A DNA stretch of 64,000 bases from Sinohyriopsis cumingii. Lineage: Eukaryota > Mollusca > Bivalvia > Unionida > Unionidae. Shown piece by piece: positions 12,485-35,521 of this stretch. Within the stretch, counting starts at the first letter, position 1. Every line of letters starts with the position of its first letter. The DNA is taken from assembly GCA_028554795.2 (NCBI GenBank), contig CM068842.1:30083782-30147781 (forward strand), written 5' to 3'. The position numbers and the translations under genes were made by a program. Below the pieces are notes generated by a model that saw only the letters and a program-made list of their open reading frames with translations, searched no databases and was not told where the DNA came from.

Positions 12485-12913
12485 ATGTGCTCCAAACTAG
12501 CTAAGCTCAACGAAGCCTACGTGAATCTGCATAGGGTCAGACACAGTCTGATACCGAAACCAGAAGAAATAGAGAATGTGAGAATGTTAAAAATCACTGA
12601 AGACCTGATAGAAGAACTCTTCCGAGAAGAAATGAACAGGGAAAAAGAAGAATGGACAGAGAAGTACAGACTTCAGAGACAGCAGCAACAGCAGCAACAA
12701 CAGCAACAACAGCAGCAACCTGAAGATGACAGAGGCTTTGTCGATTGCCGTATCGACACCAAAGAGTTTCCTTCTCTTTCCGAAGAAGCAGACCTATCGC
12801 CAGAAAGTCTATCCTCAGAGGACATCGCATTCTTAGAAACTAAAAAAGAATGCCATAGCAAACAAAAAAACAGCCCTTTTCAGGGCTACCCCAATACTCT
12901 AGAAAAGAAGTAA
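12485..12913 (+). CDS. Right-end coiled-coil gene 1 (poly-Gln), frame runs through the 3' stem-loop
   Basis: This frame encodes 142 residues. The N-terminal half is helical and charged (KLAKLNEAYVNLHRVRH), then comes a run of 14 Gln, then an acidic Ser-rich tail. The ATG at 12485 is chosen over the upstream TTG. The frame passes through the histone-like stem-loop at 12872-12887 and ends at 12913. If the mRNA were cut just after the stem-loop, it would lack a stop codon. The element B copy has a one-base length difference before this point and stops earlier. One of the two frames is therefore altered; I cannot tell which. Confidence 0.6.
   Translation: MCSKLAKLNEAYVNLHRVRHSLIPKPEEIENVRMLKITEDLIEELFREEMNREKEEWTEKYRLQRQQQQQQQQQQQQQPEDDRGFVDCRIDTKEFPSLSEEADLSPESLSSEDIAFLETKKECHSKQKNSPFQGYPNTLEKK
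12872..12887 (+). terminator. Histone-type 3' stem-loop
   Basis: AGCCCTTTTCAGGGCT forms a 6-bp stem with the loop TTTC. The flanks are AAAAAC before and ACCCCA after. A purine-rich AGAAAAGAAG block starts about 12 nt downstream. This is the plan of metazoan histone mRNA 3' ends. AATAAA occurs further on (12954), possibly as a backup signal. Confidence 0.75.
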
Positions 12914-13240
12914 CGATCGATTTGCCAATGTGTGAAGGTAGAGTAGTGTGAAAATAAACACTAAGTCTTTATTAAAAAATGTGAGGGTACGTGTTTGTGT
13001 GATTGTGTTTGTAAGTGATAAAGTAAGTTGGTGTGGATAGTAGATTAAAATGATGTTTGTTTCTTTTCTCTTTGGGCTGTTTGAGGTGTATATTTGGGGT
13101 TAGATTGGATTGCTTTGCGTATGTGGATAGTCTATTGAAGTGATGGGTAGCATAAAAAAGTGAGCGAGTGTTTCTTTTAGGTCCGCGCGTTGTTGTTGTC
13201 TCTAGGTCATGATCTAGGTAAGATGAATTTTATGTTATTA

Positions 13241-13280
13241 GGGGGATGTTTTCCTTCACGTCCGCGCTTTCAGTATAAAT
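13241..13280 (+). promoter_or_regulatory. Reiterated end-gene promoter block, copy A2, with TATA
   Basis: GGGGGATGTTTTCCTTCACG followed by TCCGCGCTTTCAG and TATAAAT at 13274-13280. The next ATG is at 13337. The sequence is conserved base for base in element B at 33811-33850. Confidence 0.8.
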
Positions 13281-13336
13281 TGAAACTCGTTCGGCAGTCC
13301 AGCTACCCTTGTTGATTGATCAACACAGCCAGAAAA

Positions 13337-13645
13337 ATGACTAGCAGAATAGTGAAACTGTTAGAACTCCAGATGCACCTGGAATATGCCAGGCGGATAG
13401 TAAACGAACTATCAGCGGAGGCTATAGTAGAAGAAGCAAGAATAAAGAAGGAAGAAGAGGAGAGAAGACAGAGGGAAGATGAGGAAAAGAAAAGAGAAGA
13501 GATGATGTCGTTTAATATTCCTGAAACAGAGGATTGGGGTGCTGAAGCGAATCATCCTTCCTCTGCGCTCCCCAGAAGAAAGGTGAAAGAAGACTGGGGA
13601 AGAAGATGCGTGTGCGGCGCCAGGCCAGGAAGGTGCAACCATTAG
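13337..13645 (+). CDS. Right-end coiled-coil gene 2
   Basis: This 102-residue protein is mostly a charged helix (VEEARIKKEEEERRQRE), probably a coiled coil, followed by ETEDWGAEANHP and a Cys/Arg-rich tail (RRCVCGARPGRCNH). I do not recognise a family. It has its own promoter block with TATA and its own histone-type stem-loop, so it is a complete transcription unit. Element B carries a homologue of 101 residues with the same C-terminal Cys motif. The N-terminal pattern is loosely similar to the other right-end genes, which suggests an old duplicated family. Confidence 0.7.
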   Translation: MTSRIVKLLELQMHLEYARRIVNELSAEAIVEEARIKKEEEERRQREDEEKKREEMMSFNIPETEDWGAEANHPSSALPRRKVKEDWGRRCVCGARPGRCNH

Positions 13646-13673
13646 ATAGGTGCATCAGGAGTTCAAAAAAAAC

Positions 13674-13689
13674 AGCCCTTTTCAGGGCT
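13674..13689 (+). terminator. Histone-type 3' stem-loop
   Basis: AGCCCTTTTCAGGGCT lies 28 bp after the stop codon, with AAAAAAAC before and ACCC after. AGAAAAGAAATA follows at about 12 nt. Confidence 0.8.
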
Positions 13690-13902
13690 ACCCAATACTC
13701 TAGAAAAGAAATAACTATTAATTTGCCAATGTGTGCAGGTAGAGTAGTGTGAAAATAAACACTAACTCTTTATTAACAGTGGAAGTGTATGTGTTTGTGT
13801 GTTTGTAAGAGCTCAGGTATGTTTGTGTGAATAGTAGATTATGGGTTTCTTAGCAAATGTGGAGAGTATAGTTAGGGTTATATTATATGAAATGAGAAAG
13901 TA

Positions 13903-13930
13903 GGGGGATGTTTTCCTTCACGTACGCGCG
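13903..13930 (+). promoter_or_regulatory. Reiterated promoter block, copy A3 (extra copy)
   Basis: GGGGGATGTTTTCCTTCACG followed by TACGCGCG. No gene starts before the next block 40 bp further on, so this is a tandem duplicate of the promoter. Element B has only one block at this place. Confidence 0.65.
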
Positions 13931-13971
13931 ATGTTTGGTCATCATCTAGGTAAGATCCATTTTATGTTTTA

Positions 13972-14010
13972 GGGGGATGTTTTCCTTCACGTACGCGCTT
14001 TTCGTATAAG
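13972..14010 (+). promoter_or_regulatory. Reiterated end-gene promoter block, copy A4, with TATA-like box
   Basis: GGGGGATGTTTTCCTTCACG followed by TACGCGCTTTTC and GTATAAG. The ATG of the next gene lies about 50 bp downstream at 14060. Confidence 0.75.
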
Positions 14011-14059: not shown

Positions 14060-14437
14060 ATGGCGTCAAACCAAATGGACAAATTACAAACCTTGCAAGA
14101 CGTTTTAGACAACTTAGGAATAATGGAACAGATGCTAATAAGACTCGTTGAAGACCATTATTCCTATAGTCCCCATCGTGTAAAGATGGAAATTAACAAT
14201 TTAAGGAAAGCAAAGGACAAGATTAGTGGTGTCATGAAAGAGATCAAGGAGGAGAAGGAGGATGAAGAGGAAAAGATAAGAATAAGAAAATGGAACGAAA
14301 AAATTGAAAAAGAAGAGGAAAATGAGAAGAGGAAGAAAGAAGAGGAGGAAGAGAAGAAGGAAGAGAAGGAGAAAAAAAAGAAGAGAAAGAGTGTTGGAGA
14401 TAAAATAAGAAGTTGGTGGAGGAAAAGAAGAAATTAG
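14060..14437 (+). CDS. Right-end coiled-coil gene 3, ending at the TIR
   Basis: This 125-residue protein has a helical N-terminus and a very Lys/Glu-rich central run, ending GDKIRSWWRKRRN. A coiled coil or disordered charged segment is likely. The gene in the same place in element B (34579-35163) is 194 residues, with an unrelated-looking N-terminal half but the same type of C-terminus (DKIRGWWKKLRS). The N-terminal part has therefore been swapped or has evolved fast. The stop lies 16 bp before the stem-loop, which is inside the terminal inverted repeat. Confidence 0.7.
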   Translation: MASNQMDKLQTLQDVLDNLGIMEQMLIRLVEDHYSYSPHRVKMEINNLRKAKDKISGVMKEIKEEKEDEEEKIRIRKWNEKIEKEEENEKRKKEEEEEKKEEKEKKKKRKSVGDKIRSWWRKRRN

Positions 14438-14446: not shown

Positions 14447-14792
14447 ACCCAAAGGCCCTTTTCAGGGCCAGCCATATTTCTCGAAAAGAGATAGTCTTTG
14501 AATTGCCTACCCCTTTTTTAAATTTAAATTTAAATTTAAATTTAAAAAAACTTTTTTAAAAAAAAAATCCCATGTTAAATTCCCCTTGTACGTATAGTAT
14601 CCCACGATTTATTCCCATGTTAAATTCCCCTTGTACGTATAGTATCCCACGATTTATTCCCATGTTAATTCCCCTTGTACGTAAAGTGTCCCACGATTTT
14701 TCTCCATGTTAAATTTCCATTGTACGTAAAGTGTCCCAAGGGTGTTTTTAATGCTAATTCCCATTGTACGTAAAGTGTCCCCATTCACTACT
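14447..14792. repeat. Right terminal inverted repeat of element A
   Basis: The inner part (stem-loop, TTCTCGAAAAGAGATAG, GAATTGCCTACCCC, A/T run) is the same as in both TIRs of element B. The outer part is a minisatellite of about 45 bp built on CCATGTTAAATTCCCC and TTGTACGTATAGTATCCCAC, repeated about five times. B has the same frame words but a different core (CATAGACCCTATA). The end CCATTCACTACT at 14792 matches the Polinton terminus. Confidence 0.85.
14454..14469 (+). terminator. Histone-type 3' stem-loop inside the TIR
   Basis: GGCCCTTTTCAGGGCC, preceded by CCCAAA and followed by AGCCATATTTCTCGAAAAGA. The stem-loop and its flanks fit the histone consensus closely, and the purine block follows at the usual distance. 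Confidence 0.85.
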
Positions 14793-15429
14793 TATATAGG
14801 TGGTTATGAACGTTAGGAATATCCCCTCATTTTTTCAGAAATATCAAAGCTTGTATGTGCATTTTCCCTTTTCCACTCTATATTAGTGCTTAGATTTGTT
14901 CCAAAAAAAAAGAAAAAAGAAACGAAACAATTTTGAAGAAAAAAACAACTGAATTTTGAATTCAGTTTTCTCTCTGTTTATAATTTTTTTCGAGTTGATG
15001 GTGCATGACAGAGTACATTCGCCTACCTTTCCAAAGTGAGAGGCATTTCTTCACATGTCATTGCCTTTGTTAAATTCGGTTTCATTGGTTAGTTATCATT
15101 AATCTTTAATTTTTTTGATGCATTTCTTTTTGATAGAAGATTTAAGGCTTTCTATTGTTGTAACGGTATTTATGTTGTTTAGTCTGTTGATGAAATTATC
15201 TATAACAAAGTGCTTAAGATTTTTCAGTTTTTTTTTATTATTTCAAGCCCTACAAAAGGAGACCAAGTTTGTCTTCAAAGACGATTGAAACTCTAAATTA
15301 CACGGGCGTGAAGGAAAACATCGTTGTGTTTAATCTAATCATGCTTGCCGTATCTCTTTGTGTTTTAGAGGTCATATTTCTTCTTAAGTAAATACACGCA
15401 TCAATAGACAGACAGATTGGGTCATCATC
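14793..15429. other. Spacer between elements A and B, no gene seen
   Basis: This is 637 bp of A/T-rich DNA with no convincing reading frame. On the - strand at 15304-15322 it holds CGATGTTTTCCTTCACGCC, a diverged copy of the end-gene promoter block. That suggests the spacer is itself part of an older Polinton (remnant C), into which B was inserted. Confidence 0.6.
15424..15429. repeat. Left target-site duplication of element B
   Basis: ATCATC immediately before the AGTAGTTAATGG terminus. It is identical to the six bases after the right terminus (35522-35527). Six bases is the known Polinton duplication length. Confidence 0.9.
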
Positions 15430-15772
15430 AGTAGTTAATGGGGATCTTATAGGGTCAATGGGACTGATCAGTACAAATACCCTTGGGAACATATAGGGTC
15501 TATGTAAATTTAACATGGAGAAAAATCGTGGGAACATATAGGGTCTATGGGAATTAACATGGCCAAAAACCCTGGGACAATATAGGGTCTATGTAAATTT
15601 AACATGGTCAAAAAACCCTTGGGACTGTATAGGGTCTATGTAAAATTGAAACAGGGAGGGTCTCTATTTTTTTTTTTAAAAAATAAAAAATAAAATAAAA
15701 AAAAGGGGTAGGCAATTCAAAGACTATCTCTTTTCGAGAAATATGGCTGGCCCTGAAAAGGGCCTTTGGTTT
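15430..15772. repeat. Left terminal inverted repeat of element B
   Basis: This is the reverse complement of 35181-35521 with only small differences in the A/T run. The outer part has four to five imperfect units of about 45 bp, each with ATAGGGTCTATG and TTTAACATGG. The inner part carries, on the - strand, a histone-type stem-loop for the left-end gene. Confidence 0.95.
15749..15764 (-). terminator. Histone-type 3' stem-loop inside the left TIR
   Basis: Read on the - strand this is GGCCCTTTTCAGGGCC with AAA before and AGCCATATTTCTCGAAAAGAG after. It lies 22 bp after the stop of the outward-facing left-end gene. Confidence 0.82.
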
Positions 15773-15786: not shown

Positions 15787-16017
15787 TTAACATAAAGGGC
15801 ATTTGCGACATCTTCTTGTCCTCAAACTTCGTCTTACAGCAGGGCCATACATCAGAGTCCTCTTGAGGCAACCTTGTCTCTCTATATAGACTCTTCTTAT
15901 CCACAGGCTGCTGCTGGTCCTGTGGACAACGGTCCACTTGGATCGGACATACATGAGCATGTCCGTCCTGAACATCATTGTTGACACAAGGGTTGAAGAT
16001 TCAACGTCGGTCCACAT
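15787..16017 (-). CDS. Small outward-facing left-end gene (76 residues)
   Basis: I do not recognise this protein. It is rich in Arg and Ser, starts MWTDVESSTLVSTMM and ends RTRRCRKCPLC. Three things support a real gene: a TATAAATA on the - strand about 45 bp before the ATG, a start separate from any other gene, and a histone-type stem-loop just after the stop. With the right-end gene 3, each end of the element then has a gene running outward and ending in the TIR. The short length and lack of relatives leave doubt. Confidence 0.5.
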   Translation of the reverse strand: MWTDVESSTLVSTMMFRTDMLMYVRSKWTVVHRTSSSLWIRRVYIERQGCLKRTLMYGPAVRRSLRTRRCRKCPLC

Positions 16018-16236: not shown

Positions 16237-16803
16237 ATGACGGAAACTCAGAAAACGATCCAATGGGGTGCACCAGCAGGGGAGACCGCCCAAGGGAACC
16301 CGGACTTACTTTCAGAAGAGGTGAATTGGGATTTTGTCGATTTTCTCTCCTCGCAAGAATTTGTTCCGGAACCTTCGTTACCTTCTTCATTACCGCAAGT
16401 GGAGAATTTTAGACAGAGACAGAAAGAAGAATTGGAGAAATTTATACAACGACAAAAGGAAGCGGAACAGGCTTTTCTCTTACAGCAACAGCAACAAGAA
16501 GAAGAGGTAAGAAAAAAACAACAGCAAGAAGAAGTAGCAGCAAAGAAACAAGAGGGTGAAAATCAAACGGTCACGGTACTGTTGGACATTTTAGCGGAGT
16601 TAAGAAGTCTGAAACAAATGTATCAGACTTCTTTATCACGACCGAAGAGAATACGACCTTCCCGAGCTAAACACGTCAACCCTGTGACTAAGCCTACCGT
16701 ACCACCCTTAGTGATTTCAACCCAATCATTATCATCATTACGCAGTCCAGAAGTAGGCCTTGGCCGTGGCAAAGGCTTAAGGCAGTTAAAATTGATTGCT
16801 TAA
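16237..16803 (+). CDS. Left-end Gln-rich coiled-coil protein
   Basis: This is a 188-residue protein of unknown function. A N-terminal region (WDFVDFLSSQEFVPEPSLPS) leads to a long Gln/Glu/Lys-rich helix that should form a coiled coil. A short helical stretch (VTVLLDILAELRSLKQMY) and a basic Arg/Pro-rich tail follow. Acidic start, coiled coil and basic tail would suit a regulatory or DNA-binding adaptor, but this is a guess. It has its own promoter (CRE plus TATA) and a histone-type stem-loop 27 bp after the stop. Confidence 0.7.
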   Translation: MTETQKTIQWGAPAGETAQGNPDLLSEEVNWDFVDFLSSQEFVPEPSLPSSLPQVENFRQRQKEELEKFIQRQKEAEQAFLLQQQQQEEEVRKKQQQEEVAAKKQEGENQTVTVLLDILAELRSLKQMYQTSLSRPKRIRPSRAKHVNPVTKPTVPPLVISTQSLSSLRSPEVGLGRGKGLRQLKLIA

Positions 16804-16830: not shown

Positions 16831-16846
16831 GGCCCTTTTCAGGGCC
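16831..16846 (+). terminator. Histone-type 3' stem-loop (best match)
   Basis: GGCCCTTTTCAGGGCC, preceded by AAAGAAAAAA and followed by ACCCACATTTCTCGAAAAGAAA. Stem, TTTC loop, ACCCA tail and the purine-rich block 14 nt later all agree with the histone 3' processing signal. Confidence 0.88.
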
Positions 16847-17098: not shown

Positions 17099-17560
17099 TT
17101 AGTCTCTCTGTTTTTTGAATTTCTTCACCGTCACACTCTTTTCCTCTTCTTCCTCCTCGCTTTCTTCCCTTCTTCTTTTTTTCTCCTGTTTCTTTTTCTT
17201 CACCTGTCTTCTTTCTTCCTCAGAAGAATCCCTCTCTTCCTCTGAAGAATCCCTCTCTTCTTCTGAAGAATCCTTCTTTTCTTCTGACTCCTCTTGTTTC
17301 TTTTTTGGGCAATCTGGAGACCAATGTCCTTTTTCTTTACAATAATAACAGGTATCTTTACTTTTGTCTTTTTTAGCTCCTGTTTTTTGACGGTCTGGAC
17401 ACTCTGAAGACCAATGCCCTTTCTTCTGACAGATATAGCAAGTATCTTGACTTTTATCTCTAAAGGAAGGAGAGTAGTCCGTAGGCTGGTCTGAAGAGAA
17501 TTTTCTAATGACCCCTCGCAAAGCTCTGACGAAACGTTCCATCTCGTTAGTCTCTTCCAT
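17099..17560 (-). CDS. CCHC zinc-knuckle protein with acidic Ser-rich tail
   Basis: This 153-residue protein has two CCHC zinc knuckles, CYICQKKGHWSSEC and CYYCKEKGHWSPDC, each with the C-X2-C-X4-H-X4-C spacing. They follow a helical N-terminus and precede an acidic tail with three RDSSEEE-type repeats. Such knuckles bind single-stranded nucleic acid, so a role in replication or RNA handling is likely. The ATG at 17560 is chosen because the remnant copy in C starts at the matching place. It is transcribed away from the polymerase from a shared promoter region. An AATAAA on the - strand lies at 17007-17012, so it seems to be polyadenylated. Confidence 0.85.
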   Translation of the reverse strand: MEETNEMERFVRALRGVIRKFSSDQPTDYSPSFRDKSQDTCYICQKKGHWSSECPDRQKTGAKKDKSKDTCYYCKEKGHWSPDCPKKKQEESEEKKDSSEEERDSSEEERDSSEEERRQVKKKKQEKKRRREESEEEEEEKSVTVKKFKKQRD

Positions 17561-17694: not shown

Positions 17695-20600
17695 ATGAAA
17701 CGATCCCATTCATTCGAGAAGAAAGAAGAAGAAAGTAAGATGCAGAAACGTGATCTCTCGCCTCGTACCAGGGCTGAAATATTGGCACAAATTCATGCCA
17801 GTGATTTTGAAGACGACATGAGTGAACCAGAATCCGAACCCTCTAAACCAAGTCCACCACCCTTTGTCAACCCTGAAAAGTACTATTCCATTCGAGAGAC
17901 GGAAAAGCGCTCCTCTAGAAAATTTAGAACCACGGCTTACAAATACACGGTGAAGTTTAAAGATTTCAAGGCTGAAGTACCGTTAGAGAAAGCAGAAGGG
18001 TTCATCACCGGAGTGTGGGATTCTCTGCTCACTGCACTCAAGCGACAATGTCAACCCAAAGAAGACGATCGCTTGAGACTTTCCATACAACACGACGGTT
18101 TGAAATCCCCTGTTTGGATCGAGTTTAGCACCCCTGCAGAATTGACCGCTTCCAAAGTCATGGACAAGATTCAACACGTGAACAATCTAATGACCAGTTT
18201 GACATCACCGATGGAAAAGCCACATTGGACATGACCCACGTCTCTCCTCCTCAAGGGACCGGACGCAAAAAGATGTTATTGGTGAACGACCTTCGCAGCA
18301 TTAAGCGTAGCCTTGTCCAAATTCACAATCCTCATGACCAGATGTGTTTAGCCCGTGCCATCGTGGTGGGACGAACCTATGCCAACAAGAACGACACGGT
18401 AGAATGGAAAAGAGACTGGGAGAACATTCGACAATCGGACCGAGCCAAACAACGAAGTGAAGCAGAACTCCTGTTACGACAAGCTGGCATGTCCAAAGAC
18501 ACACCCTGTGGCATTCCTGAGATGCAAAAATTGCAAGATGCCCTAGCTCCACGCTACACCTTGAAAGTGTACCCTCAAGAAGTGCGCGGGTCTCTGTTGT
18601 TTCGAGGGCAAGATTTTAAGGACGGAAAATACATTCACGTTTATCATCACGATGACCATTTCGATACCATTACCAGTATCACCGGATTCCTGGGATACGG
18701 TTATTACTGTGAGAAATGTGACCATGGTTATAATAATCGAGAGCAACACAAGCATTGTGGATCGAAATGCTCAGGATGTTTGGCCTCTTCACCCTGTCTG
18801 AGCGAAGAACCAGTGCCTTGTTCAACTTGTCTGCGCACGTTTGTCAGCCCTACCTGTTACCAACAACATCTGAAAACGCAAGGTTCACAGCAGAAATGTG
18901 CTTGTCAACTCCTGAGATTGTGCCCCACGTGTGGACAAGGCATACGTACCAATAGTACCAAGGCACACGTATGTTCAGGAAAAAAGAAATGTCACATTTC
19001 TCACCACATCGTGGACTTGGAACACCAATGTTACGTGCAAAAATACCAACCCCCACCAGAGAAAGAGGACGGTCACAAGAAGAAAGGCAATTTCATCTTT
19101 TTCGATTTCGAATGCATGCAAGAGACCGGCATTCACATTCCTAATTTCTGCGTGGCTCATCGAGCGTGCGAGAAGTGTATTCAAGAACCTATCTTCAGTT
19201 ATTGCCCTCACTGCAGCAAGATTCCTGGAGGGCGTGAAAAAATCTTTCGAGGACCAAAGACGCTAGACGATTTTGCCAAATGGGTCTTAGACCCCATCGA
19301 CAAGACGTGGAGCCAAGAGGACATCGAACGTTACGGAGATTGTCATCGTCATGCCACGGTGATGGCTCACAATTTCTCCGGATACGATGGACAGTTTCTT
19401 CTCAGATACTATACGGAACATGGCACCGAACGTCCTAAAGTGACTTTGAACGGAGCCAAAATCATTTTCATGCAAGTGGGACAAGTACAGTTTAAAGATT
19501 CGATGAGCTATTTGGCCATGCCTTTGAGTCGAATGCCTAAAACGTTTGGAATGACAGAAATGGCTAAAGGGTACTTTCCACACTTTTTCAATACGGAAGC
19601 CAATCAACATGCCGTTCTACCCCATTTGCCTGAGGCTCACTATTACGACCCCGACAACATGCGTACCGAACAACGAGAAGCTTTCTACGCTTGGTACCAG
19701 GCTCACGCCTCGGACCCTTTCGACTTTCAGGAAGAAATGTAAAAGTATTGTCGTTCCGACGTGGACATTTTACGGCGTTGCTGTGGAAAATTTCGAGAAC
19801 TGTTCATGGAACACGGAGGGGTCGATCCTTTGAAAGAAGCTTGCACCATTGCCAAAGCGTGTTCCTTAGTGTATCGACAACGATTCATGCCTGAAAACAC
19901 CGTGGCTGTCATCAGTCCTCAAACGACCCACTATGTCAAGCGTCAATACTCGGTCAAAGCCCTATGTTGGTTACATTACTTGTGCGATAAGGAAGACAAG
20001 TGGATTCAGCATGCCCGCAACGGAGGGGGCGAAAAGACCATCGGAACGTATTCGGTCGATGGCTGGGACTTAGAAAACCCCAAGATCGTGTACGAGTTTA
20101 ACGGTTGCTTATTTCACGGATGTCCCGTCTGTTACCCTGACCGTGGCACTAAAAATCAGTTTTTACAACGAACCATGGAAGACTTGTACCAGGACACTTG
20201 TCAGCGACGCCTAAAGTTAGAAAAGCAAGGATACCAAGTGGTGGAAATGTGGGAACACGAGTACGATCACCGTATGAAAACCGATCCTGAGTTTAAACGC
20301 CTCGTGGAAAGTTACCAGTTCATGGATCCGCTGAACCCGAGGGATAGTTTGTACGGAGGAAGGACCAATGCCACCTGTTTGCTGTACCAAACCGACGAAG
20401 AGAAAGGAGAAGAAATCAAATACTTGGACGTGTGTTCGCTGTATCCCTACGTGTGCAAATATTGTCGCTTTCCTGTAGGGCACCCGCAATTGTTCACGGA
20501 ACACATCGACCTGAAAAACATTCGACAATACCAAGGCTTGATCAAGTGTAAAGTTTTGCCTCCCACGAACCTATACCATCCCGTCTTACCTCACCATTGT

Positions 20601-21755: not shown

Positions 21756-21787
21756 TTCATTGTGACTACCAAGACCGAGCAAACAAG

Positions 21788-22531: not shown

Positions 22532-22559
22532 AGTAACTTCTTACCATAATAATCTGTTC

Positions 22560-25054: not shown

Positions 25055-25095
25055 AAACCTCAGACCCTTTTTCGTCTGTCTCACACAGTGTGAAC

Positions 25096-26056: not shown

Positions 26057-26098
26057 AGCCTGTGACCAAGTCGGGGTATCAGTGAACTTGTAAAAAAG

Positions 26099-26287: not shown

Positions 26288-26347
26288 TCCCAAAAAAAAG
26301 ATAAAAGGGTGTGCGTTAAGTCATCGACGTTAGTGTCTGTTCGGTGA

Positions 26348-26758: not shown

Positions 26759-26806
26759 AAAGGCCTCGGAAGTTCCAAGATCTCAGAATTGACCCCTGAC
26801 AACCCC

Positions 26807-27433
26807 ATGGAAGGACGAAAACTAGCTTTAGTGCCTTACAAACGATGGATGGAATACCATCGGTGGCAAGAACAACGCACCCCTCATTTACCTCCCAATC
26901 CCAATTTGAGCGAGATGTCCCAGTTACAACACGAATTGCAATCCTTGATGGATCGCCAAGATTTATCCGAAACAGAAAACTCGCAAAAGTACGGTCAACT
27001 CTTGCAACGACTGCAACTCTTTCACCAGAAAGCTTTAGACGAAACAGCTCTACCCACTTTGAAAGATTTTAAGACCTTGATGAAAAGTCCAGCACCATCA
27101 CCAGTACCAGTACCAGTTCCACCACTACCCGTGACCAAGACAGAAAAAGGAAAAGAAGAAGAAGAAGGGTTTCAAACTCCACCAGAAAAAGTACGCAAGT
27201 TAACAACACCACCTACCTCCAGAATTGGATGGATTAAAAAGATGATGGCCACCCCTTCTTCCTCACAAGAGAAAAAGAAAGTGAAGACAGAAGTGAAACA
27301 AGAACCGATATCCCCTGCTCAGACATCCTCCTCTTCAACACCTATTGCCGGTCGCACACGCAAAGCCTTGCAATCCAAGAAAATACCCCAAGAGAAAAAG
27401 AGTAGCCTCTTCCAAGAGTGGGTGCCTTATTAA
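26807..27433 (+). CDS. Unknown virion-associated protein (charged, low-complexity middle)
   Basis: This 208-residue protein corresponds to 6209-6823 in element A. It keeps 12 codons (around FHQKALDETALP) that are missing in A, and has shorter Glu and Ser runs. The reading frame is kept despite these changes. Confidence 0.7.
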   Translation: MEGRKLALVPYKRWMEYHRWQEQRTPHLPPNPNLSEMSQLQHELQSLMDRQDLSETENSQKYGQLLQRLQLFHQKALDETALPTLKDFKTLMKSPAPSPVPVPVPPLPVTKTEKGKEEEEGFQTPPEKVRKLTTPPTSRIGWIKKMMATPSSSQEKKKVKTEVKQEPISPAQTSSSSTPIAGRTRKALQSKKIPQEKKSSLFQEWVPY

Positions 27434-27455
27434 GACACCAATCAACACAAAAAAA

Positions 27456-28538
27456 ATGGAAAAAGTCTTAGCTAGCATTTACTACGATCCCTCGCATCCT
27501 GCAGGTTACGCAGGAGTTCAAAAATTGTATCGTGCTGCCAAAACGCGACTGAAAAGTCTCCGTTTACCTCAAGTGCAACGATGGTTACAAGAACAAGCTA
27601 CCTACACTTTGCACAAACCCATTCGACGCAAGTTTGCCAGAAGTCGCACCCGAGTGGAAGGCATCGATCATCAATGGCAAGCCGATTTAGCCGATGTCTC
27701 TCATTTGGCCAGCTACAATCGTGGCTACAAATATCTGTTTTGTGTCATCGACGTCTTTTCCAAATTTGCCTGGGTCGTGCCCTTGACTTCCAAATCCAGC
27801 AGCGAGTTAGTGCGAGCCCTGCAACGAGTGTTGAAACAAAGTGGCCGTCACCCTCTTCGATGGCAAACGGACAAAGGCACCGAATTTCTGAACCAAGCTT
27901 TCCAAAAAGAATTAAAGAAACGTGACATTCATTTTTTTACCACCGAGAATCCCGAAACCAAAGCCAGCATCGTGGAGCGTTTTCAACGCACTTTGAAAGA
28001 ACGCATGTGGAAATATTTTACGCATCACCACACTCTGAAGTACATCGACATCTTACCGCACCTGGTGCAAGCGTACAACCAATCTTACCATCGAAGCATC
28101 GGACGTGCCCCGCAAGACGTGACTCCCGACAATGAAGTGTTGGTGTTTGAGCGTCTGTTCGGTACGTCCCCGACGAGGGCTGTCCCCAAGAAAAGTGGAG
28201 AGTTGGCCGTAGGAGATTGGGTGCGCATTGGCAAAACCAAACGCACTTTCGACAAAGGTTACTTACCTAACTGGACGACCGAATTGTTTCGCGTCACTGG
28301 ACGAGTGCATGGCCGTCATCCTGCCGTCTATAAATTGGAAGACATGAACGCAGAAGTACTCAAAGGAACGTTTTATTTGCCCGAGTTACAACGTGTCACC
28401 AAAAAAGAAGACGACGTGTACGACATCGAAAGCATTCTCGAACGCAGAACCCGTAAAGTGGGCAAACGACGTGTCAAAGAAGTCAAAGTACGTTGGAAAG
28501 GATTCTTGGATCGACGCTTCGCAAGTCATCGACTATAA
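27456..28538 (+). pseudogene. DDE integrase with a truncated chromodomain
   Basis: The catalytic core is intact (QADLAD, QTDKGTEF, ASIVERF) and nearly identical to that of element A. Near the 3' end, after VRWKG, 17 bp present in A are missing here; a GAT repeat flanks the lost segment, as in replication slippage or end joining. The frame shifts and ends after 10 aberrant residues, removing the conserved second half of the chromodomain. The catalytic part could still be made, but chromatin binding is probably lost. Confidence 0.93.
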
Positions 28539-28553
28539 AAAGAAGTGACCATC

Positions 28554-28970
28554 ATGCCCTTTCACACATCAGACGCAGCTACGTCGACCAATCCTCCTTC
28601 ACCTAGTTCTTCTGTGCAAGATTTACAAAAACAACCCTTGTGGGTGTGGTGTGGAGAACGTGTGCCTAAAACGCAAATCGTCTTTTTCTGCCAAATCTTC
28701 GTGGTGTATTGTGTCATCGGGGCAGCCATCGCCAATTTGAGTTTGCAACAAGGAGACAAACAATTGTGGACCATTTTATTGAGCGGTTGCATCGGTTACC
28801 TGCTTCCCAATCCCTCCCTGAAATTCTCCTCGAACGGGAACGTTGTGTCCAGTGCCAGTGCCAGTCACCACTCCAACAACAACCACAACCAGAACCCCAT
28901 TTTGGGCGGAGACACACCTCTGACGTCCAGTAATATCCCATCGGACAGCCACAGAACTCTGGAATTATGA
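28554..28970 (+). CDS. Small membrane protein with two hydrophobic segments
   Basis: This 138-residue protein corresponds to 7962-8384 in element A, with the same PLWVWCGERVPKTQIVFFC segment and two membrane segments. The Ser/Asn-rich tail has small in-frame length changes. Its stop overlaps the penton ATG as ATGA at 28967-28970. Confidence 0.75.
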   Translation: MPFHTSDAATSTNPPSPSSSVQDLQKQPLWVWCGERVPKTQIVFFCQIFVVYCVIGAAIANLSLQQGDKQLWTILLSGCIGYLLPNPSLKFSSNGNVVSSASASHHSNNNHNQNPILGGDTPLTSSNIPSDSHRTLEL

Positions 28971-29884
28971 GTCACCAAAACCAATTTTACTTGACGTTAC
29001 CCAGTGACAGTTCCATGGAGGTGTTTCCCAATAACACATTGTGCTGTTACACGGCCAAATTACCTCAAGCCATCCCCTTAGATCACGAAGCCCATTGGGA
29101 AGTGGCTTTAGTAGAAATGATTCACCCTACACAAATCAAAAACATCACTGAAACTCAAAACTTTTTTGAGGTCGAAATCCTGAACCAACAATTACAAGAA
29201 GCCATGACTGACATCGGGTTTTCAGGGATCACAACAACATCCACCAGCAATCCAGCCTTCAAAATCTACACCGTGAAAATTCCACCAGGGTTTTATTTTA
29301 GCGGCCAACATTTGGTGGACACTATTGTGGACAGGTTCGAGTTCGCCTTTGCCAAAGCCCTGAACAGAGCAAAAAAAAGTGTCACCCTGGAGTACCATAA
29401 AGTGGCTCGTCGCTTACTGATGAAATTTCAGGATACCCAAACGATGTCCATCAGTTTCAATCGTGACTTGTTTGATATTTTAGGTGGAGACACAAACATG
29501 GCTCCAAATTTTAATCCGAAGATCAACAGCAATACGGAATTTTACAAGTATTTTCGATTCCCTGTAGAACTGAATCAAGGACTGAATTTAATGTTCGTGT
29601 ACTCCGATGTGGTGGAGTATAACGTGGTGGGACACACCTCTGTACCGTTACTGCGTGTCATTCCTTTCAAAGTGGATAATACCACGGCCAGTGACCAGGA
29701 AGGTGGAAACACTTACCACGTCCACCGCGAATTTGTCCATCCTCATTATTTGCCTGTCAGCAAGTCGTATTTGGACACGGTCAACATTGCTATAAAAGGA
29801 GATTTGGGACAAAATATTCCATTCACCAAAGGAAAAGTCACGGTGAAACTCCATTTTCGAAAACGGTTCTCTCACGACTCGTAA
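28967..29884 (+). CDS. Minor capsid (penton) protein, diverged middle
   Basis: This 305-residue protein has N- and C-terminal parts nearly identical to the element A penton, but the middle (about residues 55-200) is very different in sequence and length. The anchors IPPGFYFSGQHLV and KKSVTLEYHK remain. It is intact. The sharp borders of the divergent part suggest exchange with another Polinton lineage. Confidence 0.92.
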   Translation: MSHQNQFYLTLPSDSSMEVFPNNTLCCYTAKLPQAIPLDHEAHWEVALVEMIHPTQIKNITETQNFFEVEILNQQLQEAMTDIGFSGITTTSTSNPAFKIYTVKIPPGFYFSGQHLVDTIVDRFEFAFAKALNRAKKSVTLEYHKVARRLLMKFQDTQTMSISFNRDLFDILGGDTNMAPNFNPKINSNTEFYKYFRFPVELNQGLNLMFVYSDVVEYNVVGHTSVPLLRVIPFKVDNTTASDQEGGNTYHVHREFVHPHYLPVSKSYLDTVNIAIKGDLGQNIPFTKGKVTVKLHFRKRFSHDS

Positions 29885-29891
29885 GTAAGTC

Positions 29892-30311
29892 ATGTATCCA
29901 GTGTACCAAGGGGTTGCTCGACAGCGAGGACACGGTTTAGGAGACATGTTAAAATCGGCCTTTCGTTCGGTGGTCCCGGTGTTGAAACCGATGGTGACAC
30001 GCGGATTGCACGCCTTGAAAGATGCGGCACTGACGCAAGGCAAAGAATTTCTCCAAAATGTCATCATCGACAAACAAAACCCTAAAGAAGCCTTCATGAG
30101 GGCAGGCAAAAATGTCTTGCTGCAAACGGGCAAAGACATTTTAGGCCGACGAGACACACCTATAAATGCCCTGCAAGCTACCGAATCAGGCATTCAGCAA
30201 GGACAAGGCAGAAAAAGACGACGACGAAGAAAACACCCTTTCACCAGACTTCAAGCGAGAAAGACCAAGAAAAGAAGAACCGTTCGAGACTTAGACGTTT
30301 TCGATTATTGA
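29892..30311 (+). CDS. Small basic virion-type protein
   Basis: This 139-residue protein corresponds to 9323-9745 in element A and is nearly identical. It has the same RQRGHGLGDMLKSAFRS start and Arg-rich C-terminus and lies 8 bp after the penton stop. Confidence 0.75.
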   Translation: MYPVYQGVARQRGHGLGDMLKSAFRSVVPVLKPMVTRGLHALKDAALTQGKEFLQNVIIDKQNPKEAFMRAGKNVLLQTGKDILGRRDTPINALQATESGIQQGQGRKRRRRRKHPFTRLQARKTKKRRTVRDLDVFDY

Positions 30312-30326
30312 GAAAAGAGCCAAAAA

Positions 30327-31641
30327 ATGATGCACCGAGAGTCTTGCGCTTGTTCCAAGACGGAACTGGATCTGTTTGCCATGCCCCCCACGATGATGAC
30401 GATGCAAGAATCCCAATGGGTGGAATTTCACCCCGTCTCCTCATTGACAGCCTCAGCTCCCATCGAGTTTGAAATCAAAGGACAGCCCGAAGATTACATC
30501 GATCTGAATAGCAGTTACTTGTACTTGAAAGTTAAAGTTGTCGATGAGGACAATTCACCCCTAGATGGCGATGAGGTAATAGCTCCCGTCAACAATTTCA
30601 TGCATTCCTTGTTTAGCGGAGTGGACTTGTTCTTGAACAACAAACTGGTCAGCAGCAGCATGGATACTTACCCTTATCGAGCGTACCTGGAAAATCTCTT
30701 GACGTACGGAATAGACGCCAAGAACACTCATCTCAATGCCTGTGTGCTATGGGAAGCTGACGAAGCAGGCCAGTTTGAAGAATTAGAAATTGATGTAAAA
30801 AAAAACACCAAACAATGACGGATTTATAGAACGAAGAAACAGAATCAAAAGTGGAGATAGTTTAGAACTGATGGATCGTTTGCATTTGGACATGTGGTTG
30901 CAAGAGAAGTATTTGCTGAACGGGGTGAATGTCCGCCTGAGACTGAATCGGAGCAGTGCCACTTTCCATTTGATAGGCAGTACTGCTTGCAAAACTGTCA
31001 TCGAGGAAGCCAGGCTCTACGTACGACGCGTGGAAGTGTTACCTAAAGTGGGTAACGACATCAGTCAAACATTGAGCAGAACGACCGCCAAGTATCCCAT
31101 ACGACGCGTGGAAGTGAAAACGTTCACCATTCCCAAGGGACAGCGATCCATGATCGAAGATCATCTGTTCCAAGAACAGCTACCGAAACGTTTGATCGTT
31201 GGTATCGTCGAGAATACAGCCTTCAACGGAGATTTGGGTAAAAATCCTTTCTACTTTCGACACTTTGGCGTGTCCAAGATCGAAGTCAGTCGCGACGGCA
31301 AGACCTTGTGTACCCGACCTTTTGAACCTGACTTTGCCAAGAAGAATTACTTGAGATCGTACTTGTCCCTGTACGAAGCCACGGGTCAGTTAGGAACCAA
31401 CACCAGTCACGGCATTACGTACGAGGATTATGCTGGAGGCTACACTTTGTGGGCTTTCGATTTCACTCCAGACCAAGGCAGCGACGAGGGACATTTCCAC
31501 CCTATAAAATCTGGCCAGATTCGTGTGGAAATTCAATTTGCAAACCGAATCCCTGATGAAACGGTGAACGTCATCCTGTATGCAGAATTCGATAATACCA
31601 TAGAAATCAACAGTTTGAGAGAAGTCATTCTAGATTATTAG
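30327..31641 (+). pseudogene. Major capsid protein, broken by a frameshift
   Basis: The first 163 codons run in frame with the capsid signature (IEFEIKGQPEDYIDLNSSYL) and end at a premature stop at 30818. The rest of the capsid is open in another frame to 31641. The break lies in a run of nine A at 30797-30805, where the corresponding A-run in element A is in a different local sequence. No intact capsid would be made from this copy. A slip in a homopolymer could also be a sequencing error, so reads should be consulted. Confidence 0.9.
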
Positions 31642-31646
31642 AAGCC

Positions 31647-32129
31647 ATGGAAGACTGCTATCCCTCTTTACAAAGTGGAGAAACTTTGGACATGAAATGT
31701 GAGGAGACTGTGGAAGAAGAAGTGATCATGATGAAGTCAAGATGGCCAGAACAAGAAGCCCATTTAGTCTCCTGTTTTGCCAAACACTTGGTCGACAAAA
31801 TGACGGAATTGATCAAGAAAAATTGTTATGGATGTCAAAACGATCATCCCAGTCAAATTCAACACGATAAATGCCTGATGTTGAGTCAAGAAGAAAAATT
31901 GGACGAGTATCTGGACGAAGCTTGGAGTCTCATCTCGAACAAAGACGTGTTGCACCAGTGGTATAAAGACTTGCGTGAACATTCTTGTCCACCATTAACC
32001 ACTCAAGAGATCCATCGTATCGAAGCTCTCCTGAATCAGAGTGAGGAAACAGAACGAATAACCGTTTATTCGTCAGACATTTTCAAGCAAAAAGTCAGGA
32101 TCGAATTGACGACTTATTATTACCTGTGA
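31647..32129 (+). CDS. Unknown acidic protein next to capsid and protease genes
   Basis: This 160-residue protein corresponds to 11081-11569 in element A, with two Glu fewer in the acidic run. The Cys/His residues (KKNCYGCQNDH) are kept. The function is unknown. Confidence 0.7.
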   Translation: MEDCYPSLQSGETLDMKCEETVEEEVIMMKSRWPEQEAHLVSCFAKHLVDKMTELIKKNCYGCQNDHPSQIQHDKCLMLSQEEKLDEYLDEAWSLISNKDVLHQWYKDLREHSCPPLTTQEIHRIEALLNQSEETERITVYSSDIFKQKVRIELTTYYYL

Positions 32130-32150
32130 AGAAGAAAAAAACACAAATCA

Positions 32151-32711
32151 ATGGGTACCTGGGAACTTTATTACCTTTTGAACCATAGTTCGTATACGGC
32201 TTCTTGGAATCCTGTCGTCTGTGCTAAAGATGAACTCCCTCATCGCAAACCTAAAGACCATCAAGCTTACGTGATCAACACGGACGACAGTCATCTCCCA
32301 GGAACCCACTGGGTAGCCGTCTACTTTCCTCAAGAAGGATGTGTGGAATATTTCGATTCGTACGGATTGCCCCCTTTGGAAGACGATATCATTGACTTTA
32401 TGAGAAGAAATGCTCAAACCACCCGATTCAATAACGTGAAATTACAAGGCACAGATTCCTTGGTGTGTGGACAGTACTGTGTGTATTTTCTGCATCATCG
32501 CAGCCTGGGCTATTCCTTAGAACATTTAGTGACTCATTTTGATCCTCGTTCTTCTGCTAGAAACGATGTGAAAGTAGATCGATGGTTTTGTGACCATTAT
32601 GCTTATCTTTTGTCTCAAGCTAGGAAACGTAGTGTCCATCAATGGCCTAATGATTTCCAACAGTGGAAATCACAATTTCATTCACAACGTTGTCAGCCCT
32701 GTTTAAAGTAG
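32151..32711 (+). CDS. Adenain-type cysteine protease
   Basis: This 186-residue protein has the full catalytic set (H53 in THWVAVYF, D69 in FDSYGLPP, Q108 and C110 in CGQYCVYF). It differs from the element A protease at only a few positions and is intact. Confidence 0.95.
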   Translation: MGTWELYYLLNHSSYTASWNPVVCAKDELPHRKPKDHQAYVINTDDSHLPGTHWVAVYFPQEGCVEYFDSYGLPPLEDDIIDFMRRNAQTTRFNNVKLQGTDSLVCGQYCVYFLHHRSLGYSLEHLVTHFDPRSSARNDVKVDRWFCDHYAYLLSQARKRSVHQWPNDFQQWKSQFHSQRCQPCLK

Positions 32712-32953: not shown

Positions 32954-32983
32954 GGGGGATGTTTTCCTTCACGTCCGCGCTTT
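32954..32983 (+). promoter_or_regulatory. Reiterated end-gene promoter block, copy B1
   Basis: GGGGGATGTTTTCCTTCACG followed by TCCGCGCTTT, about 62 bp before the ATG at 33046. Confidence 0.75.
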
Positions 32984-33045: not shown

Positions 33046-33399
33046 ATGTGCTCCAAACTAGCTAAGCTCAACGAAGCCTACGTGAATTTGCATAGGGTCA
33101 GACACAGTCTGATACCGAAGCCAGAAGAAATAGAGAATGTGAGAATGTTAAAAATCACTGAAGACCTGATAGAAGAGCTCTTCAGAGAAGAAGTGAACAG
33201 GGAGAAAGAAGAATGGACAGAGAAGTACAGACTTCAAAAACAGCAACAACAACAACAACAACAGCAACAGCAACCTGAACCTGACAGAGGCTTTGTCGAT
33301 TGCCGTATCGACACCAAAGAGTTCTTCTTCTCTTTCCGAAGAAGCAGACCTATCGCCAGAAAGTCTATCCTCAGAGGACATCGCATTCTTAGAAACTAA
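33046..33399 (+). CDS. Right-end coiled-coil gene 1 (poly-Gln), frame different from element A
   Basis: This 117-residue frame corresponds to 12485-12913 in element A up to about residue 90, including a Gln run of 10. After TKEF a one-base length difference moves the frame, giving a basic tail that ends 29 bp before the stem-loop. Here the stop lies before the stem-loop, as expected for a mature histone-type mRNA, but the tail composition looks less natural than the acidic one in A. Confidence 0.55.
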   Translation: MCSKLAKLNEAYVNLHRVRHSLIPKPEEIENVRMLKITEDLIEELFREEVNREKEEWTEKYRLQKQQQQQQQQQQQPEPDRGFVDCRIDTKEFFFSFRRSRPIARKSILRGHRILRN

Positions 33400-33427: not shown

Positions 33428-33443
33428 AGCCCTTTTCAGGGCT
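33428..33443 (+). terminator. Histone-type 3' stem-loop
   Basis: AGCCCTTTTCAGGGCT with AAAAAAC before and ACCCCA after. AGAAAAGAAG follows at about 12 nt, as in element A. Confidence 0.8.
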
Positions 33444-33810
33444 ACCCCAATACTCTAGAAAAGAAGTAACGATCGATTTGCCAATGTGTGTGTAGGTAGA
33501 GTAGTGTGAAAATAAACACTAACTCTTTTTAAAAATGTGAGGGTATGTGTTGGTGTGTTTGTGTTTGTAAGAGCTCAAGTAAGTTGGTGTGGATAGTAGA
33601 TTAAAATGATATCTTTTCTTAGTGTTTGAGGTGTATATTTGGAGTTAGATTGAATTGCTTTGCGTATGTGGATAGTCTATTGAAGTGATTTATAAAAAAA
33701 ATTTAAAATAGTGATGGGTAGCATAAAAAAGTGAGTGAGTGTTTCTTTTAGGTCCGCGCATTGTTGTTTTTTTTGGTCATGATCTAGGTAAGATGAATTT
33801 TATGTTATTA

Positions 33811-33850
33811 GGGGGATGTTTTCCTTCACGTCCGCGCTTTCAGTATAAAT
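33811..33850 (+). promoter_or_regulatory. Reiterated end-gene promoter block, copy B2, with TATA
   Basis: GGGGGATGTTTTCCTTCACG followed by TCCGCGCTTTCAGTATAAAT, about 57 bp before the ATG at 33907. It is the same as in element A. Confidence 0.8.
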
Positions 33851-33906
33851 TGAAACTCGTTCGGCAGTCCAGCTACCCTTGTTGATTGATCAACACAGCC
33901 AGAAGA

Positions 33907-34212
33907 ATGAATAGCAGAATAGTGAAACTGTTAGAACTCCAGATGCACCTGGAATATGCCAGGCGCATAGTAAATGAACTATCAGCGGAGGCTATCGTAG
34001 AAGAAGCAAGAACAAAGAACGAAGAGGAGAGAAGACAGAGGGAAGAGGAAAAAAAAAAACTAGAAGAGAGGATGTCATACAATATTCCCGAGACAGAGGA
34101 TTGGGGTGCTGAAGCGAATCATCCCGCCTCTGCACTCTCAAGACAAAAAGTAAAAAGAGACTGGAGTCAAAGATGCGTGTGCGGCGCCAGGCCTGGAAGG
34201 TGCAACCATTAG
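33907..34212 (+). CDS. Right-end coiled-coil gene 2
   Basis: This 101-residue protein corresponds to 13337-13645 in element A. It has the charged helix, the ETEDWGAEANHP segment and the Cys-rich end CVCGARPGRCNH. The end is strictly conserved while the helix changes, so the C-terminal Cys motif is probably the functional part. Confidence 0.7.
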   Translation: MNSRIVKLLELQMHLEYARRIVNELSAEAIVEEARTKNEEERRQREEEKKKLEERMSYNIPETEDWGAEANHPASALSRQKVKRDWSQRCVCGARPGRCNH

Positions 34213-34237
34213 ATAGGTGCATCTGGAGTTAAAAAAC

Positions 34238-34253
34238 AGCCCTTTTAAGGGCT
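34238..34253 (+). terminator. Histone-type 3' stem-loop with TTTA loop
   Basis: AGCCCTTTTAAGGGCT. The loop is TTTA instead of TTTC, a change also tolerated in histone stem-loops, and the stem is intact. ACCC and AGAAAAGAAATA follow. Confidence 0.8.
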
Positions 34254-34488
34254 ACCCAATACTCTAGAAAAGAAATAACTATCCATTTGCCAATGTGTGT
34301 AGGTAGGGTAGTGTGAATATAAACACTAACTCTTTATTTATAGCGAGAGTGTATGAGTTTGTGTGTTTGTGTGTTTTTGTTTGTAAATGATGAAGTTTGT
34401 GTGAATAGTAGATTATGGGTTTATTTATTGATTCTTAGCGTATGTAGAGAGTATAGTTTGGGGTTTGATTATAAGAAATGAGAAAGTA

Positions 34489-34526
34489 GGGGGATGTTTT
34501 CCTTCACGTCCGCGCTTTCACTATAA
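34489..34526 (+). promoter_or_regulatory. Reiterated end-gene promoter block, copy B3, with TATA-like box
   Basis: GGGGGATGTTTTCCTTCACG followed by TCCGCGCTTTCACTATAATA, about 55 bp before the ATG at 34579. Confidence 0.75.
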
Positions 34527-34578
34527 TAACCCACCACGTTCGTCGTTCGAACCATTCTACGGAATAATAAAAACGAAG

Positions 34579-35163
34579 ATGGTGGTTGCAAGTGACTTGT
34601 TCAACAATTTGGTACATATATACAACTGGATAATAGATGGTATCTATGTAGTGGAGAGACTGGAAAAAGAATGGAAGATAGCAGAGTACCTGGACTACGC
34701 TAAATGTCTAAACATAGCCAAAGAAGTGATAGCAGGAATGATTGAAGAGGAGGAAAAAAGATTGAGAGGTATGATAAATCCCACCTATGTCAGAGTGGGA
34801 AGCCTAAAGGAAGCACTTGACAATGCAAGCAAAGTCAGGTGCTTTCTTGAAAAAATGTCACATGGGACAGAGTGCTCTTATGTGGAGAGAGGCCAGGAAA
34901 GACTGAGGAAAGGAGAGGAGTTGATGAGAAAAGTGATGGAGGTAGAAGTCAAGAAGATTAAAGAGAGATGGTATAAAGAAAGAAAAGAAGAAGAAAATAG
35001 AAAAAAAAGGGATGAATTTGAAAAACTGAACACAAACTGGATGAAAATCCAAGAGAAGTTCAGGGCCATGGGCCACCCGGACTGGCTGCCGGAAACAGAA
35101 AAGAAAAAGAAGAAAGGAATGATGGACAAAATAAGAGGATGGTGGAAGAAGTTAAGAAGTTAA
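34579..35163 (+). CDS. Right-end coiled-coil gene 3, long version ending at the TIR
   Basis: This 194-residue protein is helical and charged. Its N-terminal part (LFNNLVHIYNWIIDGIYVVERL) has no clear match in the shorter element A gene at 14060. The C-terminal part (KERWYKERKEEENRKKR and DKIRGWWKKLRS) is similar in style and ends in the same Trp-Trp-basic motif. The promoter block and the stem-loop are conserved around it, so the coding part was exchanged between common regulatory ends. Confidence 0.7.
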   Translation: MVVASDLFNNLVHIYNWIIDGIYVVERLEKEWKIAEYLDYAKCLNIAKEVIAGMIEEEEKRLRGMINPTYVRVGSLKEALDNASKVRCFLEKMSHGTECSYVERGQERLRKGEELMRKVMEVEVKKIKERWYKERKEEENRKKRDEFEKLNTNWMKIQEKFRAMGHPDWLPETEKKKKKGMMDKIRGWWKKLRS

Positions 35164-35180
35164 AAAGAAGAAGAAAAAAA

Positions 35181-35521
35181 CCCAAAGGCCCTTTTCAGGG
35201 CCAGCCATATTTCTCGAAAAGAGATAGTCTTTGAATTGCCTACCCCTTTTTTTAATTTTATTTTTTATTTTTTTTTAAAAAAAATAGAGACCCTCCCTGT
35301 TTCAATTTTACATAGACCCTATACAGTCCCAAGGGTTTTTTGACCATGTTAAATTTACATAGACCCTATATTGTCCCAGGGTTTTTGGCCATGTTAATTC
35401 CCATAGACCCTATATGTTCCCACGATTTTTCTCCATGTTAAATTTACATAGACCCTATATGTTCCCAAGGGTATTTGTACTGATCAGTCCCATTGACCCT
35501 ATAAGATCCCCATTAACTACT
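35181..35521. repeat. Right terminal inverted repeat of element B
   Basis: The reverse complement matches 15430-15772. It runs from the stem-loop of the last gene through GAATTGCCTACCCC, an A/T run and about five units with CATAGACCCTATA and CCATGTTAAATTTA, and ends CCATTAACTACT. Confidence 0.95.
35187..35202 (+). terminator. Histone-type 3' stem-loop inside the right TIR
   Basis: GGCCCTTTTCAGGGCC with CCCAAA before and AGCCA after, 23 bp after the stop of right-end gene 3. Confidence 0.85.

Follow-up and report, generated by a model that had tools for sequence, protein, structure and literature searches.

Histone-type 3′ signals behind the end genes of a Polinton family in Sinohyriopsis cumingii

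Can the genes of a mobile element end their messages in the manner of the host's histone genes? The question is raised by a 64,000-nt stretch of the genome of the bivalve Sinohyriopsis cumingii (GCA_028554795.2, contig CM068842.1, positions 30,083,782 to 30,147,781), referred to as the window. It carries two related Polintons in tandem, A and B, whose matched 300-nt blocks are 90 to 99% identical. Short stem-loops accompany the genes at the element ends, which were named g-1 and g0 at the left end and g1, g2, and g3 at the right end. A stem-loop followed by a purine-rich element is described as a hallmark of histone mRNAs (PMC5011920), also in a bivalve (PMC6210712). The original prediction took the loops for the 3′ ends of metazoan replication-dependent histone mRNAs, and the covariance scores, together with a purine block and spacing equal to those of the host, support this reading at the level of sequence. 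It is probable that the end genes of this Polinton family are expressed by way of host histone-gene signals, with SLBP/U7 3′ processing, histone-type transcription at the right end, and S-phase timing.

Stem-loops, promoter motifs, and the histone genes of the host

All eight predicted copies of RGCCCTTTT(C/A)AGGGCY were found exactly, in position and strand (Table 1). When up to two mismatches were allowed, the pattern matched the window nine times, the ninth match being the opposite strand of the loop at 34238; none of 100 dinucleotide-preserving shuffles equaled this number, the largest giving two matches. The 6-bp stem, the A-rich 5′ flank, and the loop of UUUC (UUUA at 34238) were present as described. 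The 3′ flank, predicted to be ACCCA-like, reads ACCCA, ACCCC, or AGCCA, and the purine block, expected 10 to 14 nt on, is GAAAAGA at 13 nt past the stem (14 nt at 12872 and 33428). Distances past the stop codon, given beforehand as 15 to 30 bp, are 22, 27, 28, 25, and 23 nt in B and 28 (13674) and 16 nt (14454) in A, and the loop at 12872 does sit within the open frame 12485 to 12913. The loops are not independent: 12872/33428, 13674/34238, and 14454/35187 form homologous pairs, and 15749 on the minus strand is the inverted-repeat mirror of 35187. Because A and B are related tandem elements, the eight amount to four independent loops per element plus the mirror. The mirror also has a gene, since a 76-aa frame on the minus strand stops 22 nt short of it. 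In B, a fraction of 0.038 of strand positions lies no more than 35 nt past the end of a frame of ≥70 aa; this is the chance per loop of such a placement.

Comparison with the histone genes of the host supported the prediction. Histone H4 gave 114 matches in the genome, of which a few are partial; they form arrays whose repeat unit measures ∼8.3 kb. At one host locus (L126), H3, H4, and H2B end with GGCCCTTTTTAGGGCC, GGCCCTTTTTAGGGCC, and GGCCCTTTTCAGGGCC, respectively, and all three share the stem of the Polinton loops and carry GAAAAGA 13 nt past it. The Rfam model Histone3 (RF00032; gathering score, 34 bits) recognized all eight window loops with 27.7 to 41.2 bits and the host H3, H4, and H2B loops with 35.9, 37.7, and 38.2 bits (alike in the four loci scanned of 20), so that scores far below those of true histone loops, the outcome named beforehand as refuting the prediction, did not occur. 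The eight window loops were used to build a model, R1, which gave 86.1 to 91.7 bits for them and 15.0 bits for the next best match in the window; its 58 matches to host histone ends (39.5 to 60.8 bits) covered all 20 loci. Host histone loops lie 27 to 34 nt past the stop codon, compared with 16 to 28 nt for the window loops outside frames. In g1 and g2, CTCTAGAAAAGA is identical to host H2B over 12 nt; g0 and g3 carry CTCGAAAAGA. In stem, loop, flanks, purine block, and spacing, the Polinton ends are thus like those of host H3, H4, and H2B, that is, of metazoan replication-dependent histone genes. Unlike histone genes, the end genes encode no recognized histone, sit in a mobile element, and in some copies have an A-U outer pair. 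The four end proteins scanned (g0, g1, g2, and g3 of B) had no Pfam match and hence no histone match. That host histone genes had been mistaken for Polinton genes was considered and rejected: no histone was present among the inspected translated frames or in the Pfam scans, and among the H4 matches listed none lies on the window contig.

The right-end genes resemble replication-dependent histone genes upstream as well, where they have H2B- and H4-type promoter stretches, a feature that the original prediction did not include. GATGTTTTCCTTCACGTCCGCGCT, common to g1, g2, and g3, is 1 of 24 bases off a stretch that begins 107 nt upstream of the host H2B ATG. Seven copies of this H2B-type motif are present in the window, five with one mismatch and two, both before g3 of A, with two and three; six of them lie 84 to 92 nt from the ATG and one lies at 153 nt. 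The best match in 100 Markov controls of the window had six mismatches, in a control run after the match had been noticed. TTTCTTTTAGGTCCGCGC, which lies 80 nt before the host H4 start, recurs ahead of g2 in A and in B. The spacer between the two elements also contains, on the minus strand at 15307 to 15318, TTTTCCTTCACG, which forms the core of the H2B-type motif.

Copies across the genome and selection on the end genes

The host assembly (2,904,868,851 bases in 1138 contigs) contains the 14-nt hairpin core GCCCTTTTCAGGGC 28,062 + 28,697 = 56,759 times, whereas the backward control occurs 2 + 1 = 3 times. As each element has about five loops, this suggests roughly ten thousand elements in the genome. 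A chance origin of the loops was ruled out by the shuffles, the placement behind frames, and the genome count against the reversed control. The 100 listed places (of the 56,759) fall into 51 clusters, of which 18 are divergent pairs spaced 1066 to 1104 nt apart; the g-1 and g0 loops in the window are 1082 nt apart. From these 100 places, 40 stretches were chosen, 20 aimed at left ends and 20 at right ends, all within the first 3 Mb of contig C1 (one, L103, proved to be a right end). They hold 95 loops at E ≤ 0.01, and Rfam, applied to 20 of the 40 stretches, gave 28 Histone3 matches above the gathering score.

A frame of at least 50 aa ends 14 to 54 nt upstream of 86 of the 95 loops. GAAAAGA is present in 91, at 13 nt past the stem in 87 and at 14 nt in four, and is missing in four. 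The 3′ flank reads ACCCA in 54, AGCCA in 28, ACTCA in five, and otherwise in eight. Stems are GGCCC/GGGCC in 53 loops and AGCCC/GGGCT in 35 (three with UUUA), and of the 78 distinct rows, 38 have G-C and 37 have A-U as outer pair. The shuffle control was exceeded for the cells paired and for the covariation score but not for pairs with double changes (358/500), because a single pair varies. The H2B-type motif was found in 19 of the 20 right-end stretches (53 copies), and a 14-nt H4-type core was found in 14 of them. A TTGCC(A/T)A block at a fixed place past the purine block (16883 to 16895 and equivalents; columns 65 to 71 of alignment A5) is nearly constant in the 95 loops and is not in the three host histone ends examined.

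The end-gene frames are under purifying selection. Median dN/dS was 0.13 for g-1 (17 copies), 0.39 for g0 (10 copies), 0.13 for g1 (14 copies), 0.22 for g2 (16 copies), and 0.09 for the short form of g3 (9 copies), with median dS over the five sets of 0.11 to 0.97; frames off the start patterns were dropped, and pairs with dS of ≤0.02 or >1.5 were excluded. The two forms of g3, short in A and long in B, finish at the same 3′ signal. The g-1 protein is rich in Arg and Cys, and g3 is predicted to be an all-helical charged protein (mean pLDDT, 80.4) for which none of 621 fold-search matches reached E ≤ 0.001. As a speculation, roles of the end proteins in step with DNA replication would fit.

Proposed expression of the end genes and competing explanations

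On the reading preferred here, SLBP would bind the stem-loop and the U7 small nuclear ribonucleoprotein would bind the purine block at the 3′ ends of the end genes, with the 5′ end of U7 pairing with CUAGAAAAGA and CUCGAAAAGA. Cleavage a few bases beyond the loop would then give end-gene mRNAs that lack a poly(A) tail, a kind of mRNA for which the histone genes of animals are described as the sole known source (PMC1924863). The H2B-type element before g1, g2, and g3, with the H4-type stretch upstream of g2, would confer histone-type transcription. Because the end genes carry histone 3′ signals, and those at the right end promoter signals too, presumably captured from host histone genes, they would most likely be expressed in S phase, when the host cell replicates its DNA. 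The host probably possesses the SLBP/U7 machinery, given that its own histone arrays carry the same signals.

Several observations weigh against this reading or limit it. Four of the eight window loops score below the Histone3 gathering score (E values, 2.3e−5 to 4.2e−4), the other four above it. A stem pair is broken in six of the 95 loops (the outer pair, as A-C, in three and another pair in three), and one further loop has a U-G pair. As the stretches were picked by an exact hairpin match, the constancy of the stem is partly a selection effect, and the 14-mers used leave fair tests only for the flanks, the purine block, the position, and the outer pair. Of the 19 left ends having a g0 loop, 10 retain a full-length g0 frame. 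U7 was not found in the host with RF00066, in a search that scored 65 of 801,960 candidates and detected 0 of 14 controls, and SLBP was not found by family and peptide searches run without a positive control; these negatives carry no weight. Neither the H2B-type motif nor the H4-type core occurs in 18 of 18 left-end stretches, and for this reason S-phase transcription is argued for the right end only. Finally, among the 37 frames checked for polyadenylation signals, AATAAA was also seen behind the loop of several end genes.

The original prediction had held that the core genes lack the loop and have AATAAA instead. No loop lies behind the core genes of B, but the AATAAA contrast was mostly wrong: AATAAA or ATTAAA follows the protease in both copies, the CCHC gene, and one frame near 5935 to 6444 (ATTAAA), while capsid and integrase have neither within 400 nt. 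With these two lacking a signal and several loop-bearing end genes having one, the contrast falls. The hairpin might instead be a stability or translation element on a polyadenylated mRNA whose true 3′ end lies at a later poly(A) site, as the downstream AATAAA of several end genes would allow; human H2AC18 is described as processable either way (PMC9756948). This appears improbable. AATAAA is present within 130 nt of just 23 of the 95 loops, and of none of the 33 typed as inverted-repeat loops, and the purine block, which only U7-type cleavage requires, is more constant than AATAAA. The histone genes of Caenorhabditis elegans are reported to have the loop, a candidate U7 site, and AATAAA, and their mRNAs end behind the loop (PMC1924863); AATAAA further downstream is for this reason no objection to histone-type ends. 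A similarly small probability was assigned to a passive relic, in which an ancestral Polinton acquired host histone flanks that were copied along with gene cassettes and are unused. A host origin is suggested by the appearance of the loop, the purine block, and the H2B-type motif alike, and the right-end cassettes share similar flanks, as after duplication. Yet the signal blocks have stayed constant while their surroundings diverged. Between A and B, three 46-nt signal blocks differ at 1 of 138 sites and three adjoining noncoding stretches at 67 of 817 (Fisher P = 4.6e−4); further noncoding stretches, not pooled, differ at 1 of 96, 45 of 153, and 1 of 20 sites. Followed from the loop outward, the right inverted repeats of the two elements show no difference over 71 columns and match in 15 to 24 of 30 columns beyond that, and end genes with a median dS of up to 0.97 have kept GAAAAGA in nearly all copies. 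The zero diversity in the block behind g0 is explained by the choice of left ends for that count, which used a pattern including part of the block.

The palindrome could also serve at the DNA level, as a site for the integrase, the terminal protein, or a transcription factor near the element ends, and one loop per end does lie inside the inverted repeat. The g0, g1, and g2 loops are outside the repeats, however, and every loop is oriented with its gene and has strand-specific flanks. The nonrandom placement behind frames, the even split of the outer pair between G-C and A-U (though few events may underlie it), and the presence of the same signal in host histone genes all make such a role very unlikely. 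Hardly more can be said for the loops chiefly being decoys that titrate SLBP and U7 from host histone mRNA, although this would be compatible with histone-type expression. The excess of 56,759 hairpin cores over 114 H4 matches would suit a decoy, which would not require an H2B-type motif before particular genes; the purifying selection on the end genes implies that their products matter.

Histone-type expression of the end genes therefore remains the preferred explanation. The chances are slightly better than even for a broader proposal, that a virus-like mobile lineage took over the whole histone control cassette (H2B/H4-type promoter and SLBP/U7 end), spread it over unrelated end genes, and reached about ten thousand copies. 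Nonhistone genes as potential users of the pathway would then far outnumber the histone genes, would be timed to S phase, and may compete for SLBP and U7.

The two elements, their relatives, and known systems

Inverted repeats with a 6-bp target duplication are characteristic of Polinton/Maverick elements. Element B (15430 to 35521) has both, with repeats of 348 nt and ATCATC on either side; element A is truncated by the left window edge, so that its left end is outside the window, and finishes near 14792. Pfam and homology searches identified PolB, an RVE integrase, an FtsK/A32-type ATPase, a cysteine protease, and a capsid, the gene set of Polinton/Maverick (adintovirus-like) elements. The adenovirus-type protease scored 16.2 bits against Peptidase_C5, under the curated cut-off of 21.3. 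The capsid is a probable assignment from gene position and the homology of the intact A frame to bivalve proteins of unknown name; it has 1894 matches, and names among the 120 listed point to Mercenaria, Ostrea, Crassostrea, and Saccostrea. The polymerase (18231 to 21755) and capsid (30327 to 31641) of B are each broken into two frames, and the capsid frame of A is intact (436 aa). The core genes include one with a BIR (inhibitor of apoptosis) domain, at 21788 to 22531 (dN/dS of A versus B, 0.82); the domain was tested in B only, and the counterpart in A is at 1506 to 2144. Past the loop block (14510 to 14792 and 35243 to 35521), the inverted repeats are built from degenerate ∼44- to 45-nt units, and these are not alike in A and B. 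At 37934 to 40092, a long tandem repeat of 41 register copies, spaced alternately by 42 and 44 nt, retains open frames of 121 to 128 aa.

Table 1. Features of elements A and B in the window (bits, Rfam Histone3 score)
Feature	Position	Strand	Remarks
H2B-type motif before g1 of A	12397..12419	+	88 nt to ATG
g1 of A	12485..12913	+	142 aa; frame continues through own loop
Stem-loop in g1 of A	12872..12887	+	GAAAAGA at 12902-12908; 27.7 bits
H4-type promoter stretch upstream of g2 of A	13171..13188	+	
H2B-type motif before g2 of A	13245..13267	+	92 nt to ATG
g2 of A	13337..13645	+	102 aa
Stem-loop behind g2 of A	13674..13689	+	GAAAAGA at 13703-13709; 31.0 bits
H2B-type motif before g3 of A	13976..13998	+	84 nt to ATG; additional copy at 13907
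g3 of A, short form	14060..14437	+	125 aa; 37% identity to long form
Stem-loop behind g3 of A	14454..14469	+	GAAAAGA at 14483-14489; 35.6 bits
Left target duplication of B	15424..15429		ATCATC, 6 bp
Left inverted repeat of B	15430..15777		Matches right repeat in 341/348 columns
Stem-loop behind g-1 (mirror of g3 loop)	15749..15764	-	GAAAAGA at 15729-15735; 35.6 bits
g-1	15787..16017	-	76 aa; frame retained in other copies, dN/dS 0.13
g0	16237..16803	+	188 aa; 20 homologues elsewhere
Stem-loop behind g0	16831..16846	+	GAAAAGA at 16860-16866; 41.2 bits
CCHC zinc-knuckle gene	17099..17560	-	Without loop; ATTAAA/AATAAA downstream
Core genes of B	18231..32711	+	DNA polymerase B (two frames), BIR/IAP, A32-type ATPase, integrase, capsid (two frames), adenovirus-type protease
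H2B-type motif before g1 of B	32958..32980	+	88 nt to ATG
g1 of B	33046..33399	+	117 aa
Stem-loop behind g1 of B	33428..33443	+	GAAAAGA at 33458-33464; 27.7 bits
H4-type promoter stretch upstream of g2 of B	33742..33759	+	
H2B-type motif before g2 of B	33815..33837	+	92 nt to ATG
g2 of B	33907..34212	+	101 aa
Stem-loop (UUUA) behind g2 of B	34238..34253	+	GAAAAGA at 34267-34273; 31.1 bits
H2B-type motif before g3 of B	34493..34515	+	86 nt to ATG
g3 of B, long form	34579..35163	+	194 aa; 5 homologues elsewhere
Right inverted repeat of B	35174..35521		
Stem-loop behind g3 of B, inside right inverted repeat	35187..35202	+	GAAAAGA at 35216-35222; 35.6 bits
Right target duplication of B	35522..35527		ATCATC, 6 bp

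In IMG/VR, 71 loci hold the bare hairpin GGCCCTTTTMAGGGCC, none with GAAAAGA within 40 nt or with ACC next to it, and R1 gave them at most 24.7 bits, far from the scores of the window loops. The hairpin alone was rejected as evidence, being too weak when these 71 loci have it without the flanks. No relatives of PolB, capsid, or g3 were found in IMG/VR, and two stricter loop patterns had no matches there; the single match to the loop-plus-ACC pattern (L005) had no Histone3 match. Related capsids are encoded by four contaminant contigs (L001 to L004) from bacterial metagenome-assembled genomes in GTDB, of which two are titled as animal symbionts; Polinton capsids in such genomes imply host or other eukaryotic DNA binned with bacteria. 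None of the four had a Histone3 match. L001 stops 0.8 kb past the protease frame, and in L002 and L003 the capsid is followed by no protease frame, so these three do not test the feature, while L004 (26% identity; different gene order) is a weak negative.

Gene ends of the histone type are not known to us from any Polinton. The claim that such ends are undescribed in Polintons stood in so far as no description of histone-type ends or promoters was found among the open-license matches listed; in PMC8097293, "histone," "stem-loop," "polyadenylation," and "hairpin" have no occurrences. It has to be qualified by a bare count in a section of PMC12220804, which includes six histone 3′-UTR (untranslated region) stem-loops in polinton-like viruses and virophages among classes of noncoding RNA. 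That section gives the number only, with no location, gene, or function, and counts none in its cryptophyte elements. Adomaviruses and their relatives (PMC11071296) are described as animal DNA viruses that also touch histone biology; there it is a protein that is histone-like, whereas here it is the control signals.

If the end genes are expressed as proposed, nonhistone genes of a mobile element can take over the histone 3′-end pathway, and the timing of Polinton gene expression would have a concrete answer. Recognition by SLBP and U7 could also be studied on the tens of thousands of natural stem-loops and purine blocks that the family would provide.

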